Both the position numbers and the translations under genes were made by a program. From Phytoseiulus persimilis (lineage: Eukaryota > Arthropoda > Arachnida > Mesostigmata > Phytoseiidae), in contig CM075103.1 in assembly GCA_037576195.1 (NCBI GenBank), positions 8,618,001 through 8,682,000 on the forward strand: a DNA stretch of 64,000 bases. The letters are read 5' to 3'. A model generated the notes under the pieces. The model saw only the letters and a program-made list of their open reading frames with translations. It was not told the origin of the DNA and did not search any database. Shown in pieces: positions 3,258 to 43,459 of the stretch (positions are counted from its first letter, which is position 1; each line of letters opens with the position of its first letter).

Positions 3258-6200
3258 AGCCGCGTGTGATGGTGACCGGCGTGCTGGGCGGCCGCGTCGG
3301 TCTTCCCTGTAATATACAACCCAACTCAACAGAGGACGAAGTTTCGCTTGTGTTGTGGTAAGTAAGCTCTTCGACTCCATCCAAACTCCTTCGAACTTCA
3401 CTCGGAAGCCAATCGTCGCGTCCTCATCACACCTGTGATCCACGTCGAAGTTGTCCATGATTGGAGATGAGCTCCGCAGTCCGAATGTGGAGGATCTGGA
3501 GAGATATGGTCTCTGAATCCGGTGCTCCCGATCCGAGATATCTCACCGACGGGGAGCGCCCACTCAGGTTTCTCGGAATTTCGAATCCTTGTTTTCTCTC
3601 GGCTCGGAGTCTGTTCAATGTTTGATTCATCATGTCAAAGGTCAGTCCTTCGTTGCTCCGCTCCAGCGATTCGAGAAGAATGTCGACGATCTGAATAATG
3701 GAAATCTCCCCGCCCCCCATACGTACCGGTCGCGAGTTGGCCGGATAAGGTTTTCGGGGTCGCTGAGCAAGACGGGGGTGTCATTTTCGCCCCGCTGTCG
3801 CTATTCAATTCAAGCCTGTTCCGAGACGGGGTTCCTAATACTCGGTTCTACAGAGATGAGGTTGGTGTACGGCGTCGTGATCTCGAAACTTCTCTGGACA
3901 GAATGGGGCTCCGGTTCAGACGGGAATCCGAACAAATCAGTTCGACTGAATCTGGCTCCCATACGACACCTCAAAGAGATCGAAAAGATCTCTGTCAGGC
4001 TTTGTGGGAACCCACCACTTTTTTTTTTTTATAGAATCATTCATTTGATTGCCATCGAATTCGAGATTGAACTCCAGTCGGCGCATTGAGTCCACTCCGC
4101 TTCTGTTCCTTCGAATCCTCCAGGATTCTTCATTGGGGGCCCCCTCCTCAGCAGATGACCATGTCGAACGATCTCCTCGAAGCGTTGTCCGTCCTCAGGT
4201 ACAAGGATGACTCGACAACTCCGATCTACTCGCTGGACTCTAGAAAAACGACTCTGAGAAACGCTCACCACGCACCGGTCTATTGGCTGAACGGACGGGC
4301 TTACCTGAAAGCGGCGGCAGCAACAACAATCCCCAGCATTTCATCCGGATTAGGTTTCAAACGGGCTAACGATGAAATTCCTAATGAAGCCACCGCCAAT
4401 TCTCCCACATCCCTCCTGGAATTGAAGGATCTCGAGAAGCAGGACGAAGCTTTGTATCGGTGCAGGGTGGATTTCAAGAAGGCCCGTACGCGGAACTACG
4501 AAGTGCAGCTGAAAGTCATCGGTGAGTCGCGTTTGGAAGCGTTGCTCCCTTTTCGACAGGAACCTGCCCGCGTATCGCAAAAGCAGAAATAATACTTTCG
4601 CGACACGTCGCATTCGAAGGCAACAGCCCGCAGCGTTGGCAGAATAATAACGCCCATGTCTCCGCGGCGTTCGAGAACGTCTCGGAAATGATGGCTCGGA
4701 GTCTGCGCGGGCGGCAGCAGAGTGGCCCGCGCATGAACGCCCGGTAGTTTTAAGTCTCTGGAATGAAGGGAACTAATGAAATCACTAACAGAACTCCTCT
4801 CCGTTTGCCATCATTCAGTTCCGCCGAGCAGAATAGCGGTGACCGACCAACGGGGAACGGTCCTGCAGAACAACGCTGTGATCGGTCCGTACAGTGGCGG
4901 TGACAAACTCGTTCTTAAGTGCCAAGCTTATGGAGGTAAGCGCCTGTTCCCTCAACGCGCTCCGCGTCTTCCGCTACAGAGACGACGGTTTCACTCCACC
5001 TTTGCTGGGATTGAGAAGAATGAATCCGACTCCGTTCCTTCAGGGAATCCTCCTTCGATCGTCAGCTGGTACCGAGGTGCCATCGTTCTGCCGACGCCCT
5101 CGGCGAAGAGCCCCGAAGTCTCCCAGGACTTTCTCGCCCCGCAGAACGGACTCAAACTGCTGCAGACGGCGGAACACGCGAGCGATCTAGTGTTTCCATC
5201 GTTGGACCACGAGAGCCTCCTCGTGACGTTCACCTGCGTAGTATCCAACAACAACATATCACAGCCGCTGACCAGTTCGGTCACGTTAGACATTTACTGT
5301 GAGTCAGCCTGAAGCGCAAGTTCCTGAGCCCTTCGCTCCAGTCCGAGAGTTCCAACTGACATCGAGTCCGCTGACAACCTTACAGTTCGACCTTCACGCG
5401 TCTGGATCTCGACCGCGGCTTCGAACGTTCTCTCGGCCGGCACGGCGGTGACCTTCCAATGCTCGTCTTCAGGATCTCGACCACCGGCGGTCATCCAGTG
5501 GTTCAAGGGCGGCGAGCGGCTGAACGCAACGGCCTCGCAAAGTAATACCAGCAGCTCGAACAATTCATCGATCGGGACCTGGCATACCTCAACTATCGAG
5601 TTGATACCGCGGCCGGAAGACGACGGGAAACAACTCACGTGCCGGGCCGATAACCCTGCGATGCCTCCGTCTATAAACCACGATTATCATGGGAGGCACG
5701 GGAACGCTATAACGGACGGTATCACACTTGAGGTGCAATGTAAGTACAATTCGTGAGTTGCTTGCCCAGCTCCTTACCTCGTTCGCTCGGTGGCCTTCCT
5801 GCCGGTCCGCCTGTTCGTCCGCGTAACCGCCCGTCGTGCAGTTACCTGGCTTGTATAACAGTACGTTCATATTAGAGGAGCAATAGTTTCCTTTCTCGGC
5901 CACGGACTAGAAAAGAACTACGCCGTTGGCAAGATGGCGGCATATCCAGTCCTCTAGTGCAGCAGTCACCAACTTAGACTAAACACAATCGAGGACAGCA
6001 AAAGGGGAGATTCGTCCATCTCGGGGAGAATGCGATGTGATTCCGATCAGAATCGGACATGATTATGACCGAGCTATGGCTATTCTATAGTCTCACCTCG
6101 AAAACATAATCGTAACTTTCAATTATAGTCATTCTAATAATAATAATCATATCCATCGAAATTATGGCTATTTAAAAAGATCATGGTCATGCTCACCAAA

Positions 6201-9200
6201 GATTTTCCATCGTGGATTATAATCATAACTATCAGAAGAATATGACCATTAATGATAATCATGGTTATGTTAGCAGTGATTCATCATGATTTGAAATCAT
6301 GATCATCAAGAGGATATGACCATCGAGATGAGTCATAATCATTATAAATTATTATTGATCATTATCAATTATTTTTGATCATTATCAATGATTATTAATC
6401 ACAATCAATGATTATTGATCACCATCATGAAAAAATAAGGCTATCATTAGTTTTGGTCAGGATTCTGTTCGTCGATGCTCATTCAGCATGATCGATATCC
6501 ACAATAATGGTTATAACCTCTCTCTATTTCGACATTTCGACCGCACCAGGAATCATTCTCAAAATGGAAAATGTCTTAGCCTCATTCCAACTCCCGCTAA
6601 TCAAAACCTGTAGAAACAGAAATATCAGTTGAATCTTGATATTCCGCACCCAGGAGGAAGGGGTCCCATGGGAGACGGGAAAATCGCGTAGAACGGATCT
6701 CTAACGGGTAACTAATCTCTTCCGCTCATAGGAGAGCTCTGGGTGACGTTTTTCAGCCGAATCCGAGAACCACCCGTCACTTCGGTGGGACTTCCATAGT
6801 GCGTATCTCAGTCCTTTCTCCCGTCCCCAGTCAAACTCCCCTGTTCCTAATCGGGGATCTCTGGAAGCTTCTCAGACCGCGTTTCAGTTTTGCGGAGCTA
6901 GTTGCCATCCTCTGGGAATTCACGGTGGGGAGGGGGCCGCCCGGAGCTTTGTCAACTCTGACGCGAGGCTCCAAGTCGACTAAGCGTCTCAGGTTTTGTG
7001 GAATCTCAATTTGAACAAATGGAATCCAGCGGGAAACGCGCGTAACAAGCTGACGCGCTTCGACTGCGGCCATTTTGAAACTCGAGATTTCCTCGGGATG
7101 GGGATGAGTAATCTCGGATTGGAGTATGAGCACACTCAGCTTTGAGGGTGCTCATGTGATCCACGTGCCCACGGGAAGGAAGCATGAATGATGTATCAAC
7201 GAACGGTATGAAGTGTCTGCGGATCGAAAGCGGGTTTGATTCAGCCGGTGACCCGCGAAAACCATGGGAACGCGGTACGGATGACCAATATCCGGTCCTG
7301 ATACTTTCGCGTAGTAAGGTTCGCCTTGGCGGGCCACACAGCTCGACAGCTCAGAGCTGGGTTGAGTGACCACCGCTCAGCCGGTGAAGCGATCAAATGA
7401 CATTTTTTTCTCGAGGGACATGCCCGCCCTCGATGCCCACCACATTGACCCCCACAACTCCCCTTCCCCGAATAAGACCGGTTACTCTGAGGCGTCCTAT
7501 ATTGCTAGAGCCCGCTCGGAGTTTTTCAATAACGAGTTCATGTACTGCCTGGGGTAATGTACAGGTCCTCATTTATAACAAACATTGCACGGAGGATGGC
7601 ACGATCATTCAAGATCGAGGGTCCTGGTATAGGGGCTGATCCGGTTGCGTAATGCGACGGTCGGGGAGGTTTCCAACGGGAGTGTCCGTTATCACTCGTT
7701 CACTCTTGATGTAAGGAAATTAACTCGGTGGATGCATCGGAAGTACAGCGGACGAGCGAAAGTGGAATCGAATCACAACATTCGCGCGAAAAGTCACATC
7801 CTCAGCAAGTGGGATGCAGAGTAATCCAGTGCCTCCTCGGAGATCCTCTTAGTAGAGCAGCACTCAGGGAAGCGTGTGTGCGTGTGGAATGGGTCGGATC
7901 TAATGGGTAGGAAGGGAGAAGGGATTAGGAGGAAGTGGAAACGAGGGAAAAACGGAGCCTGTAGGCGTCGACGATTCAATAGCCAAGTGTTGATCGTCGT
8001 CGACGTCGTGCAACGTAGCGCGACGGAACCGACGGAGGGTGTACAGGGCCTTAGAATTTGAACTATTCGTTAATCTAAAGGGTTCGTTTCAGATGTGCCA
8101 CAGTTGGTCGTTAGGCTAGGGAAGAAGCTTCGGCACTCGCACATCCGCGAAGGCAGCGACGTCATTCTAGAATGTGACGTTAGGGCCAACCCTCAGCTCA
8201 TCGAAATGGGTTGGAAATACGAGGGAACCGAACTCATCACGGACACCTCTCGGGGGATTGTGATCAGCGAGCTATCCCTTGTGCTCCAAAATGTCACCAG
8301 GTATGTAACTTCAGATGTTCCCACTCAGAGACGAAACTGCAGCTCGAACTCGATCGGATCGTACCGCTGTCTCTCCGTTTCCCTCCCATCGTATTGTCTA
8401 GCGATTACGGGAAATGGATTTCGAGTCTCGTTCGATGCGTGGCTACCTTTCGTCAAGTGTCACGGGATGTACGGAAAGCTCGAGGGCCACTCGATCCCCT
8501 AGTGAGGAAACGTGAGATAGGGACCGAAGAAATTACTTGTGGATTGAAGTTGATGTTCGAGACAATGCTCTCCCACAGAAAGATGGACGGCGAGGAGGGA
8601 CTCCATATTTTTGAAACGGGACTCGCCGGGGGCGATGAGGTCGCGCTTGGGAGAGTCTTTGACTTCGCCTTGGTTTCGATTTTCGAGCACCTCGCTAATT
8701 TCTCCTGGGAGCGCTCTCGGACCCAAGGAAATATTTACATCCGGTCACAATGTGTAGCTAAGCTCTCGATATAACTTATTCACACAGACACAACCGGGGC
8801 CACTACGTGTGTACAGGAACAAACGCTGAAGGGACCGGGGACAGCGACCCGTTCCACCTCAGGGTTCGATGTGAGTTCAATTTTACTCCGATCTTGCTGA
8901 GGCTATTCGCACGAACTCCGTTTCGCACCAATGGAGCCTGGCAGGCTTCCGGAACAACTTTCATCCGAACCCATCCCTTCACAGACGAGCCCATCTGCAA
9001 AGCGGGTCTGAAGCAGGTTTACGGCGCTGCGAGGAACGAGCCCGTGAGAATTTCTTGCGAGCTCGAAGCCGACCCCGAGGAGGTGACGATCAAGTGGAAA
9101 ACGAAAAAAATGAAGTACGGAATTTCCGCGCAGAATTTCATAAAGTCCCCATCCCAGCCGACAAATGGGTTTCTAGCGGTGGAAGAGGATACTGCCAAGG

Positions 9201-11091
9201 ACACGAGCTATTTCGTCGAGACCGAGGGGACCCGCAGCTGGCTGACGATAATACCGAAGTCTGAAGACGACTACGGACCTGTGATATGCTGGGGCAAGAA
9301 TCAGATGGGTCGACAGAAAGATCCCTGCGTTTTCACGCTCATAGCTGCCGGTCCTCCAGGTCCTGTACATAACTGCAGTGTGATCAATCAGACAGAGGAA
9401 TCTTTAACGATCTCGTGCCTTGAGGGCTACGACGGAGGATCCGAAGGAGGTCAGACGTTCCACATGGAGGTCCACGACTCGGCAAATCAAAACCGAGTGC
9501 TGATCGCGAATCTGAGTTCTTCAGCGGCCCCGCCGAGTCTTCAAGCCACCGGCCTGTCTCCCTCGACTCCGTACGTGTGCACGATTTACGCGTCGAACGA
9601 AAGGGGAACAAGCCAGCCCACGATCCTCGTTGCTTCAACGATTCCTAGGCCTCTGAGCCTGTCATCGAAAGGGGGTTTCATCTTCGACTACATCGACGGT
9701 CGACTGAGCCTGAGCAACAGTCCAGCGCTGATCGCGTTCGCAATCACCGCCGCCTTGTCCTCGCTGGCTCTGGGAACTTTTCTCGTCGTCGTTCTAATCA
9801 GAAGAACGACGGGCTTCGGACATATGTTCAAGGAGAATGCGAACAAAGGTAAGTTGATGCTGACCACGGTTTTTCGTCCGCATGTACGATCGAGTCGTCA
9901 GTGGGAAAGGTTCGGACTTGAGCATGTCAACTGTTGCTAACCCATCTGAACGTCTCGTATCAAGATTGTCACAACGACACTGAAAAAGACGATGATGACC
10001 CATCTATACCTCTGCAAGAGACCAAGAAGGATCAGACGGGAATCACGGATTTCCGGAGCTTCAGTGATAGCGGGGAGGATAAGAAGTGTCCCGATATTCT
10101 ATCAGGTAATACCTCGTTATAGCCTTGAAAATGTACCTTCCCTCTCCCCCCCCCCCTCCGGGCGACAGCCAGACAACTTCGGTCTGTTCCAATTTTCGGA
10201 ATTATTTCCCGTTCTAGAGACCCAGATAATATCCAATCCCTTGACGGCGGCTGAAAGCAGTTTCACCCGTCGTTCCCCATCGTGCAATTCGCAGCTGCAT
10301 AAGCTCGAGGGGGGAACGACGAGTCCCACGAATCGTGGCTCGAAGAGGGATTCATGGGATTTCTCCAATCACAAGCCCAGAAATTCTCTACCCTCCTCGT
10401 TGTCATACCAAAATATGGCGACAATACCGAGAAAGTGTCAAGGACAACAGAACACCACAACAGGCTCGGGGCTGAAAACCCCCTCGACAAAAACTGTTAC
10501 GTTCGATATCACACCGAGCACGCATCCATACGTGAGTAACGAGGTATCCTCAGCTCCATCTTGCCAACTTGCTCTCTTCGACTCCGGCTCCCAACTCATT
10601 TGGGCGAGGGAAGGTTGGGTAGAAGGATACGGGGAAATAGCGAGAACCGGGACGTACTCATACCCGAATTCCGAGACAGGGGATGGGAGGGTCGGGGGAG
10701 GAGCTCGGGCCGCGAGCGAGGAAGACGGTCCTGGGGGGTGATTTTTTTGCTCATAATTCACCTAATGTTCCAGGCCTGGGTAGACAGCGGATCATTCTCT
10801 TTGAGCCTGCCTCGCAACCGCGGAAGTGCAAGTCATGCTTTCCTCTACGAATCTGGGCTTTCGTCTTCTCCTGGTGAAATCGCCTTCCAGAGAAGCAGTC
10901 AACGTGCCAAACTTCTCACGCTCGCCGAGCCACAAAGGGCCAAGGTTCTCAAGTGTCCCTTGTCCCTACCGGCCACTACTTCAGTTCAGGCTCTAGGAGG
11001 GCCATCGTCCCAGCAGCAAACAACAACCACAACACTTGTCCATCCTAAAAACAAAGCTCCGCTCGCGAAGCGGGATGAAGGCCATCTGTAG
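3258..11091 (+). CDS. Sidestep-family Ig/FnIII transmembrane receptor, 11 visible coding exons, 5' exon missing
   Basis: Probable cell-surface receptor of the Sidestep family; in Drosophila such proteins bind Beat-family partners and guide axons. Exons (all GT-AG): 3258-3357, 4199-4521, 4819-4935, 5044-5298, 5386-5739, 8093-8300, 8788-8870, 8985-9848, 9965-10105, 10218-10531, 10774-11091. Every junction keeps frame and the sum gives about 1,024 residues to the TAG stop. Five Ig domains are seen, each with its cysteine pair: Ig1 (LPCNI / YRCRVDF, residues ~1-140), Ig2 (LKCQAYG / FTCVVSN, ~141-264), Ig3 (FQCSSSG / LTCRADN, ~264-382), Ig4 (LECDVRA / YVCTGTN, ~382-479), Ig5 (ISCELEA / VICWGKN, ~479-598). 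Then come an FnIII domain (~599-702), a membrane helix (~726-750) and a Ser/Thr/Gln-rich tail. This five-Ig, one-FnIII, one-TM plan is that of Sidestep. The first visible exon starts inside a codon (phase 1), so a signal-peptide exon lies upstream and was not found. Paralogue identity within the family is not resolved; Nephrin-like proteins are the main alternative. Confidence 0.9.
5740..8092 (+). other. Intron 5 of the receptor (2.35 kb), largest visible intron
   Basis: Bounded by GTAAGT after VQ at 5740 and by TTTCAG before the exon at 8093. It separates Ig3 from Ig4. The first part (about 6050-6450) is strongly AT-rich and repetitive; the rest returns to normal composition. No exon-like reading with splice sites in the correct phase was seen inside it. 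Confidence 0.8.
6351..6430. repeat. 20-bp tandem repeat, four copies, inside an AT-rich block
   Basis: Four head-to-tail units of exactly 20 bp at 6351, 6371, 6391 and 6411, with consensus ATTATTGATCATTATCAATG. The first two are closest and the later two carry a few substitutions. The unit contains the palindromic core TGATCA. The surrounding 6050-6450 has many looser relatives of the form ATGATCAT, ATAATCAT and TATGACCAT, suggesting decay of a longer array. Confidence 0.75.
8985..9848 (+). other. Exon 8 of the receptor: Ig5, FnIII and membrane helix in one 864-bp exon
   Basis: Longest exon of the gene. It opens with the fifth Ig domain (first cysteine at RISCELEA, second at VICWGKN). It then runs directly through the FnIII domain, which begins near GPPGPVHNCSV and ends near the VASTIPRP strand, carrying the typical SPSTPY turn. 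A short linker leads to one hydrophobic helix at about 9725-9799 (ALIAFAITAALSS... ending VVVLI), followed by the basic stop-transfer residues RR. Several Asn-X-Ser/Thr glycosylation sites lie on the outer side. Donor is G|GTAAGT at 9849. Confidence 0.88.
9965..11091 (+). other. Cytoplasmic-tail exons 9-11 of the receptor
   Basis: Exons 9965-10105, 10218-10531 and 10774-11091 encode most of the ~270-residue intracellular tail. The first part is acidic (a run of four Asp). The middle is rich in Ser, Thr and basic residues, and the end is Gln/Thr-rich before the TAG stop at 11089-11091. No catalytic domain is visible, as expected for Sidestep proteins, whose tails are poorly conserved. The two introns are short (112 and 242 bp) and begin GTAATA and GTGAGT. 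The long C and pyrimidine tract at about 10140-10158 lies in intron 9. Confidence 0.8.
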
Positions 11092-42161: not shown

Positions 42162-42163
42162 TA
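42162..42163. repeat. Left TA target-site duplication
   Basis: TA immediately outside the left CAGGGTG end. Paired with TA at 43458-43459, it defines the insertion site of the hairpin element. Confidence 0.7.
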
Positions 42164-43457
42164 CAGGGTGTGTTCTCTAAGCTGCAACATTTTCGTGGCC
42201 TCCGTGTTTTGAGCTGTATTTCGGTCGAATTTCATCCGATCCGGGATTTTTTTTTTGATCGAAAGCTCTTGAAAAGGCGCATCTTATCGCATTCTAATGT
42301 AGTCTTGCATTCTACCGGCGAGGGTTCGCTCGTTGTGCCGGAAGCTAGCCGCAGCGGAACTGAAACCACCCAGAATTGTTTCAAGTTCAGCAGCTGAACT
42401 TGGCCCCGTTTTTTTTCTGAGAATCAGATCAGCTCTGCGTTTTCCAGGGCTCGTCGAAGTTTTCCTTAATTTGATTCATGGCCCATAAGAGAACCTACCA
42501 GGGAATCGCCGATTCTCAACCAATTTCGGAAAAGAAAAAACGGAAAAGTTCCTCTCGATACCACCTACGAAAGAACGCGCAGTTCGGTTGTGAATCGGAG
42601 AAACGGTATTCAATACGAGATACCCCTAAATTGAGCCCTCCAGCTCCCCTGCCGCCCTCTCCCGTGGAGAACAACTCATGACTCCTCAGGTGAGCCGAGT
42701 TCGGGAATTCCACTGATGGCAAAAGTTTCTTGTTTCGAGCCAACCTCCCCGGAAACGAAGTAACCGGGTCGATCCGATAACTTTTTTTTCACCTCAAAAG
42801 TCACTGGTCGCTCATTTCATGTCCCCGTCTGGAAACGCGCCGACAACTCGGCTCCCGTAGCAGACCGGAGAAAGTCATCGCGGCGATCGGCTCCTGGTTC
42901 GGAAGGAAAACTTCGGTATCTCGCAACTCTTCCGAACTGTTATTCGTCGAAGTCGTCAGGACCCCTGCCGAGTGGTCGGTGCGTTTTCGAGCAGGGACAT
43001 GAGATGACCGCCCAATGATTTCTGAGGTGGGAAAAATAGTTCTCGGATCGACCCGGTAAGGAACTTTTGCCATCGGTGAAATTTCGGCAGGGGGTCTGGG
43101 GGGCTCAATTTAGGGGTAGCACTGATTGAATACCGCTTCTCCGATTCGCAAACGATCTGAGGGTTCTCGCGAGCGTTGCATAGCTGGGATCGAGAGGAAT
43201 CTTTCAGATTTTCATTTTTCAGAATGTGTTGAGAAGCGGCGATTCCCTGGTAGGTTCGTTTAGGGGCCATGGATTGAATTGAGGAAAACTTCGACGAGCT
43301 CTGGAAAACGCAACACTGATCTGATCCTCAAAACTAAAAATGCGATAAGATGAGCCTTTCCAAGAGCTTTCGATTCCCATATTGGATGAAATTCGACCGA
43401 AATACAGCTCGAAACACGGAGGCCACAAAAATGTTGCAGCTTAGAGAACACACCCTG
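42164..43457. mobile_element. TA-flanked hairpin DNA transposon (Tc1/mariner-type MITE) with very long inverted arms
   Basis: Both ends carry CAGGGTGTGTTCTCTAAGC in inverted orientation, each flanked outside by TA (42162-42163 and 43458-43459). This is the TA target duplication used by the Tc1/mariner superfamily. The ends continue into nearly perfect long arms: roughly 42164-42860 pairs with 42955-43457, leaving a loop of about 100 bp. The left arm is longer because of small insertions. Each arm holds the same short ATG-led reading beginning MAHKRTYQGIA (left, plus strand, 42478) or MAPKRTYQGIA (right, minus strand, 43270). These differ at many residues and look unconstrained. No DDE transposase is encoded, so the element is non-autonomous. 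Confidence 0.85.
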
Positions 43458-43459
43458 TA
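43458..43459. repeat. Right TA target-site duplication
   Basis: TA immediately outside the right end (CACCCTG on the plus strand). It mirrors the TA at the left end. Confidence 0.7.

Follow-up and report, generated by a model that had tools for sequence, protein, structure and literature searches.

An old palindromic element of Phytoseiulus persimilis, very probably a non-autonomous copy from a DD37D, maT-like family of IS630-Tc1-mariner transposons with long terminal inverted repeats

The 64,000-nucleotide stretch of Phytoseiulus persimilis DNA analysed here (the window) holds a large inverted repeat of 1,294 bp (42164-43457) around a loop of ~114 nt, and the question is to what this palindrome belongs and how two such long arms came to lie against each other. 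The same CAGGGTG tip occurs at both ends, the first and last 25 bases are identical inverted copies, and TA flanks the element on either side (Table 1), which confirms the boundaries proposed in the initial annotation. A 20-base tip pattern, allowing up to three mismatches, matches twice in the window, with 0.00 matches expected from 100 shuffles. The arms were described there as near-perfect, a description that has to be given up: they differ at 15.8% of the aligned positions, BLAST pieces between them are 86, 79 and 81% identical, the left arm contains 120 additional bases with no counterpart in the right arm or in the TIR of the transposase-encoding relative described below (the partner), and short inner segments of the left arm are missing from the right one. 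Scans of the whole window give no Rfam match and no tRNA. At 4071-9940 of the window lie open frames that weakly resemble immunoglobulin and fibronectin III domains, at scores under the Pfam cut-offs; they are perhaps exons of an animal cell-surface receptor gene.

Table 1. Features of the palindromic element and its flanks (window positions; TIR numbering follows the partner)
Feature	Positions	Strand	Remarks
TA, left target-site copy	42162-42163		
Left arm, partner TIR 1-579 plus 120-bp insertion	42164-42843	+	element 1-126 and 247-680
120 bp confined to left arm	42290-42409		
67-codon probable chance reading MAHKRTYQGIAD... in left arm	42478-42681	+	family shows no coding constraint
Conserved subterminal block (TIR ~415-523), left arm	42681-42789	+	
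Presumed deletion junction joining the TIRs (579/696)	42844-42850		
Right arm, TIR 696-1, longer retained TIR	42851-43457	-	
Unpaired loop, inner TIR segment of right arm only	42853-42966		
Transposase C-terminus remnant	42856-42900	+	RSRPEKVIAAIGSWF vs RSRLEKVIAANGSWL in partner
104-codon probable chance reading MAPKRTYQGIAA... in right arm	42956-43270	-	
Conserved subterminal block, partly deleted, right arm	43032-43085	-	
TA, right target-site copy	43458-43459		

The tip pattern (again up to three mismatches) has 219 matches in the 181-Mb genome and none when the pattern is reversed as a control, in agreement with the many copies expected from the outset. Delimitation yields 37 separate elements, 386 to 3480 bp long. 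TA flanks 34 of them at either end, against a TA share of 2.8% among the dinucleotides of the window; such a target-site duplication is typical of IS630-Tc1-mariner. All except two measure 386-1315 bp, and one of these 35 is shorter than 600 bp. The window element agrees with MITEs in being non-coding and one of many copies, with conserved TIRs and without a transposase; MITEs are usually shorter than 600 bp according to the part of the literature available (PMC4877112), whereas the window element reaches 1294 bp. The initial reading as a TA-flanked, non-autonomous element of Tc1/mariner type with unusually long inverted arms is borne out. Three relics of 385-386 bp (L063, C3:34032362 and C3:34082138) lie 50-60 kb apart, and the one that was read has TG/TA flanks. 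Two DDE_1 fragments nearby show a like spacing, perhaps through segmental duplication rather than transposition.

Empty sites were sought by joining the flanks of ten elements and searching them in the genome, the best 40 of 495 candidates being scored. Two of the ten joined flanks yield matches (42 altogether, most of them due to one repetitive flank), while the other eight, among the best 40 of 495 candidates, yield none, and an empty site of the window copy is not found. The joined flanks of L061 match across the junction in 34 places, besides one short match, and 30 of the 34 have the length of the query, which points to an unoccupied site holding TA just once. Those of L048 match across the junction in seven places, all of them exceeding the query by one base. 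These paralogous empty sites support insertion at TA for two other copies, L048 and L061.

A transposase-encoding relative, as envisaged initially, is present in the same genome. This partner (L048:4726-7856) is 3131 bp long with TA on both sides, has TIRs of 739-742 bp that are 98.5% identical, and contains an open frame of 417 codons. The encoded transposase is of the DDE/D type of the superfamily: it exceeds the Pfam cut-offs for DDE_3 (2.8e-9), HTH_23 (3.5e-8) and HTH_28, with HTH_Tnp_Tc3_2 below its own cut-off, and matches Sleeping Beauty (3e-10) and Mos1 (3.3e-5) in PDB. Its catalytic spacing is D-91-D-37-D, i.e. 37 residues between the second and the third D and an aspartate as third residue, as in maT (DD37D). 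The right TIR starts ~100 bases before the gene end (L048 ~7115-7118; the stop ends at 7219), so that the 3' end of the gene lies within the right TIR, and the left TIR holds the same gene end inverted. The matches listed include a single complete partner, besides a truncated tandem copy identical to it. The partner arms differ by 11-18% from those of the 15 full-size copies, which makes the partner a relative of their founder and not the founder itself. Within L048:1-8356 the partner occurs twice at a step of 4157 bp, the first copy truncated, with 568 upstream and 2823 downstream bases identical, a doubling that is either a recent tandem duplication or an assembly effect. By eye, a reading around the partner resembles a hAT transposase.

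Mapped on the partner TIR, the window arms correspond to TIR 1-579 joined to 696-1. In all 15 full-size copies (1160-1315 bp), only one of the two arms contains the loop segment, the short arm ending at TIR 577-579 and the long arm at 668-696; since this junction is common to all of them, one deletion most likely founded the subfamily. The loop of the window copy retains C-terminal codons of the transposase. In a tree of the 30 arms of the full-size copies and the two partner arms, the long arms of 12 copies split from the rest (0.87), their short arms form one group (0.90), and the sub-branches of long and short arms largely mirror each other; in the window copy, L008 and L054, the two arms of a copy pair with each other (0.76, 0.77 and 0.85). 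Most simply read, the two arms have travelled together, and the window copy branched off early from the line of the founder and decayed afterwards. Homogenisation between arms as a general process is unsupported, 12 of the 15 copies keeping distinct long-arm and short-arm lineages.

The window element is thus very probably an old non-autonomous copy of a maT-like (DD37D) family of IS630-Tc1-mariner with TIRs of ~740 bp, fused by one ancestral deletion and moved in trans at TA. The internal deletion would have removed the transposase gene and joined the TIRs at 579/696, the loop being the inner TIR segment retained by one arm; the fusion product would then have been mobilised as a unit by the family transposase, presumably that of L048 or a close relative, and inserted at TA by cut-and-paste. 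The window copy itself is probably inert by now. The palindrome would not have been newly made in the window copy, but represents the long TIR pair of the family minus its interior.

Long TIRs are not confined to the partner. Five relatives (L081-L085) have transposases 52-58% identical to that of the partner, likewise enclosed by long inverted repeats (principal pieces of 473-667 bp, 88-96% identical), and appear to form three families in the transposase tree (L081/L082, L083/L084 and L085); the tips of these sister transposons read CAGGGTGGTCA. CAGGGTG tips are found at both ends in six of the seven relatives L081-L087 and at one end in L084. The catalytic spacing is DD39D in L081, L082 and L083, whose open frames span 354 codons or more. 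L086 and L087, in contrast to the partner with its 742-bp TIR and 3131 bp, have the size of maT elements (29-bp TIR, 1.3 kb) as well as the DD37D spacing, and are 45-48% identical to the partner. The tree of ten sequences, all from this genome, leaves four of seven inner branches open, and with these forks open a single clade of long-TIR families is not upheld. Long TIRs are a family trait, present in five related copies of apparently three families.

How the long TIRs themselves originated is a separate matter, on which the initial alternative of two head-to-head copies mobilised together bears. It gains some support in the partner, and fails as an account of a palindrome formed anew in the window copy. 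Between the left TIR and the transposase of the partner lies an opposite-strand frame of 209 codons (L048:5473-6099), whose end resembles the N-terminal helix-turn-helix of the transposase in a profile comparison (18.0 bits, E 1.3e-4; the best of 2000 shuffles reaches 5.8 bits). Its best pairwise match is L081 (E 3.8e-6, composition adjustment off). Read outward, the left half of the partner thus presents a helix-turn-helix-like fragment, the C-terminal end of a transposase at the TIR border and then the tip, and an alignment with L091, an old and degraded relative, runs through the border at 74%. Since L091 has stops, nothing suggests that the fragment is functional as a protein. Judged from the sequence, the inverted C-terminus in the left TIR and the inverted fragment look like remains of a second, head-to-head transposon copy, and the long TIRs may have come from the fusion of two inverted copies that moved as one, the left of which later lost its catalytic core. 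This origin is possible and somewhat doubtful: the homology covers one short domain, plain BLASTP against the partner's own transposase gives E 0.003 and a Pfam search of the frame nothing, L081-L083 have ~100-190 bp from gene start to TIR and so no room for such a fragment, and copying of one end onto the other during repair explains a long TIR equally well. A head-to-head fusion is compatible with the internal deletion proposed for the window copy.

The arms also carry a short ATG-led reading (MA-x-KRTYQGIA), correctly noted at first in both arms and taken there as a hint of a coding ancestor. It is open across 70-71 codons in both partner arms and in many copies. Between consensus arms of the old and the young subfamily (28 arms without those of the window, and 13 arms including the two of the partner) its dN/dS is 0.85, from 16.0 non-synonymous and 6.0 synonymous differences, with a 9:7:6 distribution over the codon positions, and the reading is rejected as a gene or exon on this ground; no Pfam family exceeds the cut-off for it, and tblastn against the sister families gives short matches only (best 20 residues, E 2.5e-5, L081). 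It is best seen as a probable chance reading carried by the repeat, the true coding trace being the transposase C-terminus in the loop. That the locus serves a selected function, e.g. as a long double-stranded RNA that is a source of small RNAs or through a small protein of the arms, is very unlikely. The element, if transcribed, would fold as one long hairpin (-780 kcal/mol, a raw value with no shuffle control at 1294 bp), and the reading is open in both partner arms; however, the reading has the substitution pattern just given, the hairpin is a consequence of joining the TIRs, and the window arms are decaying.

Hardly credible is a partner of pogo/Tigger type (CENP-B-like, DDE_1), a view that draws on L047 (3480 bp), in which family tips, TA and 479-bp arms of 96.7% identity enclose an open DDE_1 transposase frame of 531 codons. 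Segment 476-2871 of L047 has 23-bp inverted ends of its own, however, and in all three other places fetched it occurs without family arms at 99.3-99.5% (whole in L076, partial in L075 and L077), so that the gene belongs to a separate nested insertion and not to the element itself. The nested unit (L047:976-3371, within C1:42857362-42860841) is a transposon of pogo/CENP-B-like type that carries an open DDE_1 transposase and sits inside a MITE of the family. A misassembly, which the initial annotation had raised, or a chance palindrome can be dismissed for practical purposes: palindromes are generally hard to assemble, but diverged copies occur at many separate places, the window arms have diverged from each other, and two other copies have empty sites.

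The inner part of the TIR shows a further peculiarity. TIR 408-524 matches L081-L083 gap-free at 71.6-75.2%, against ~68% for the coding DNA of the transposase, and its differences are even over the codon positions (e.g. 9:12:9), against the strong rhythm of the gene (95:42:40). This block of 117 bp is not detected in L085. A match to L083 (70.9%) is also shown by TIR 26-126, and L081 and L083 resemble each other more in the gene (73.2%) than in the arms overall (68.9%). Adjoining a family member, L043:2364-2878 contains the conserved block once more as an inverted pair (71%), perhaps a MITE of a sister family.

At least 100 of the 117 bases are kept in at least one arm in 21 of 22 shortened copies, and in both arms in two; the sole miss is L025 (84 and 34 bases). 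Random placement of one uniformly distributed deletion per copy in a parent of 1096 or 1269 bp leads to 15.9 such copies expected and to at least 21 in 0.2% of simulations, a value (0.002) that serves as a guide only, the null ignoring shared descent, repeated deletions and hairpin-linked bias. The 22 copies exclude L063 (386 bp, no block; 21 of 23 if included), L093 (one tip missing, block kept), L021 (degraded, about half of the block) and the solo arms L002, L006, L007, L022, L028 and L038. Counted over 35 derivatives, at least 100 bases of the block are retained in 33, L063 and L025 being the exceptions. All 22 copies retain, in one arm at least, each of eight further segments of equal size that lie closer to the tip (position 1 to 474); the pattern is therefore one of an arm kept to ~540 bp and another free to shrink, and the block is not singled out. 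This would follow if the inner block is required a single time, or else if a deletion in a palindrome is usually confined to one of its arms. A putative second cis-acting transposition site at TIR ~408-524, beside the tip and needed in one arm only, may be carried by the long TIR, a tentative proposal that we regard as rather unlikely.

Among known systems, ordinary maT elements have short TIRs and a length of ~1.3 kb, the form that L086 and L087 appear to represent with their 29-bp TIRs, 1.3 kb and DD37D, and from which the partner departs by TIRs of 742 bp and a length of 3.1 kb. Foldback elements, which the annotation named as another option, are non-coding, with long inverted arms around a small loop, tandem short repeats in the arms and a longer target duplication; the window element differs from them by its TA target and arms of unique sequence. 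The closest published precedent, in the part of the description available, is provided by the aphid LTIR elements: Apismar5.1 (DD41D) and Apismar5.2 (DD40D) are LTIR-like Tc1/mariner elements of 2307 and 2423 bp with TIRs of 466 and 460 bp, and are said to be related to maT DD37D; MITEs formed by internal deletion are also reported (PMC5490172). They share with the partner the Tc1/mariner superfamily, the long TIRs and the internal-deletion MITEs, and the partner exceeds the LTIR size given in that account (TIR >460 bp, element >2.3 kb; PMC5490172), but its spacing is DD37D (DD39D in two sister families) and not DD40D or DD41D. As far as that description extends, the 742-bp TIR overlapping the 3' end of the gene, the CAGGGTG tips, full-size MITEs made of TIR alone and the inverted N-terminal fragment also set the present family apart. 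In Drosophila, the accessible part of the account of Bari transposons mentions a long-inverted-repeat type with ends of ~250 bp and three direct repeats, together with MITEs thought to derive by internal deletion (PMC4877112). The present family is Bari-like, on that account, in combining Tc1/mariner affiliation and long similar ends with deletion MITEs, and unlike Bari in having no convincing internal copy of the tip in the arm: in ten tests for an internal direct repeat of the tip (IR/DR; five elements, both strands), at least 42 of 300 shuffles reach the score each time. Our search of the open-access literature, which beyond these two papers covered listings and the opening lines of abstracts, brought up no account of DD37D elements whose TIRs are this long.

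In kind the window element is an ordinary one; what is unusual is the long-TIR family to which it belongs. Less ordinary are the TIR overlapping the gene end, the inverted transposase fragment inside and the conserved 117-bp non-coding block. What seemed an odd hairpin can be traced to a defined family of transposons, of which it is a remnant, and it illustrates how a palindromic MITE can be produced by nothing more than losing the middle of a long-TIR element. Relatives with long and with short TIRs in one genome provide material for asking how long TIRs originate, and the natural deletion series (one arm of 60-440 bp, the other of ~540 bp) for asking what they do. If the second cis-acting site is real, the family would represent a system of asymmetric use, in which one long arm carries the inner site and the other arm can shrink to ~60 bp.
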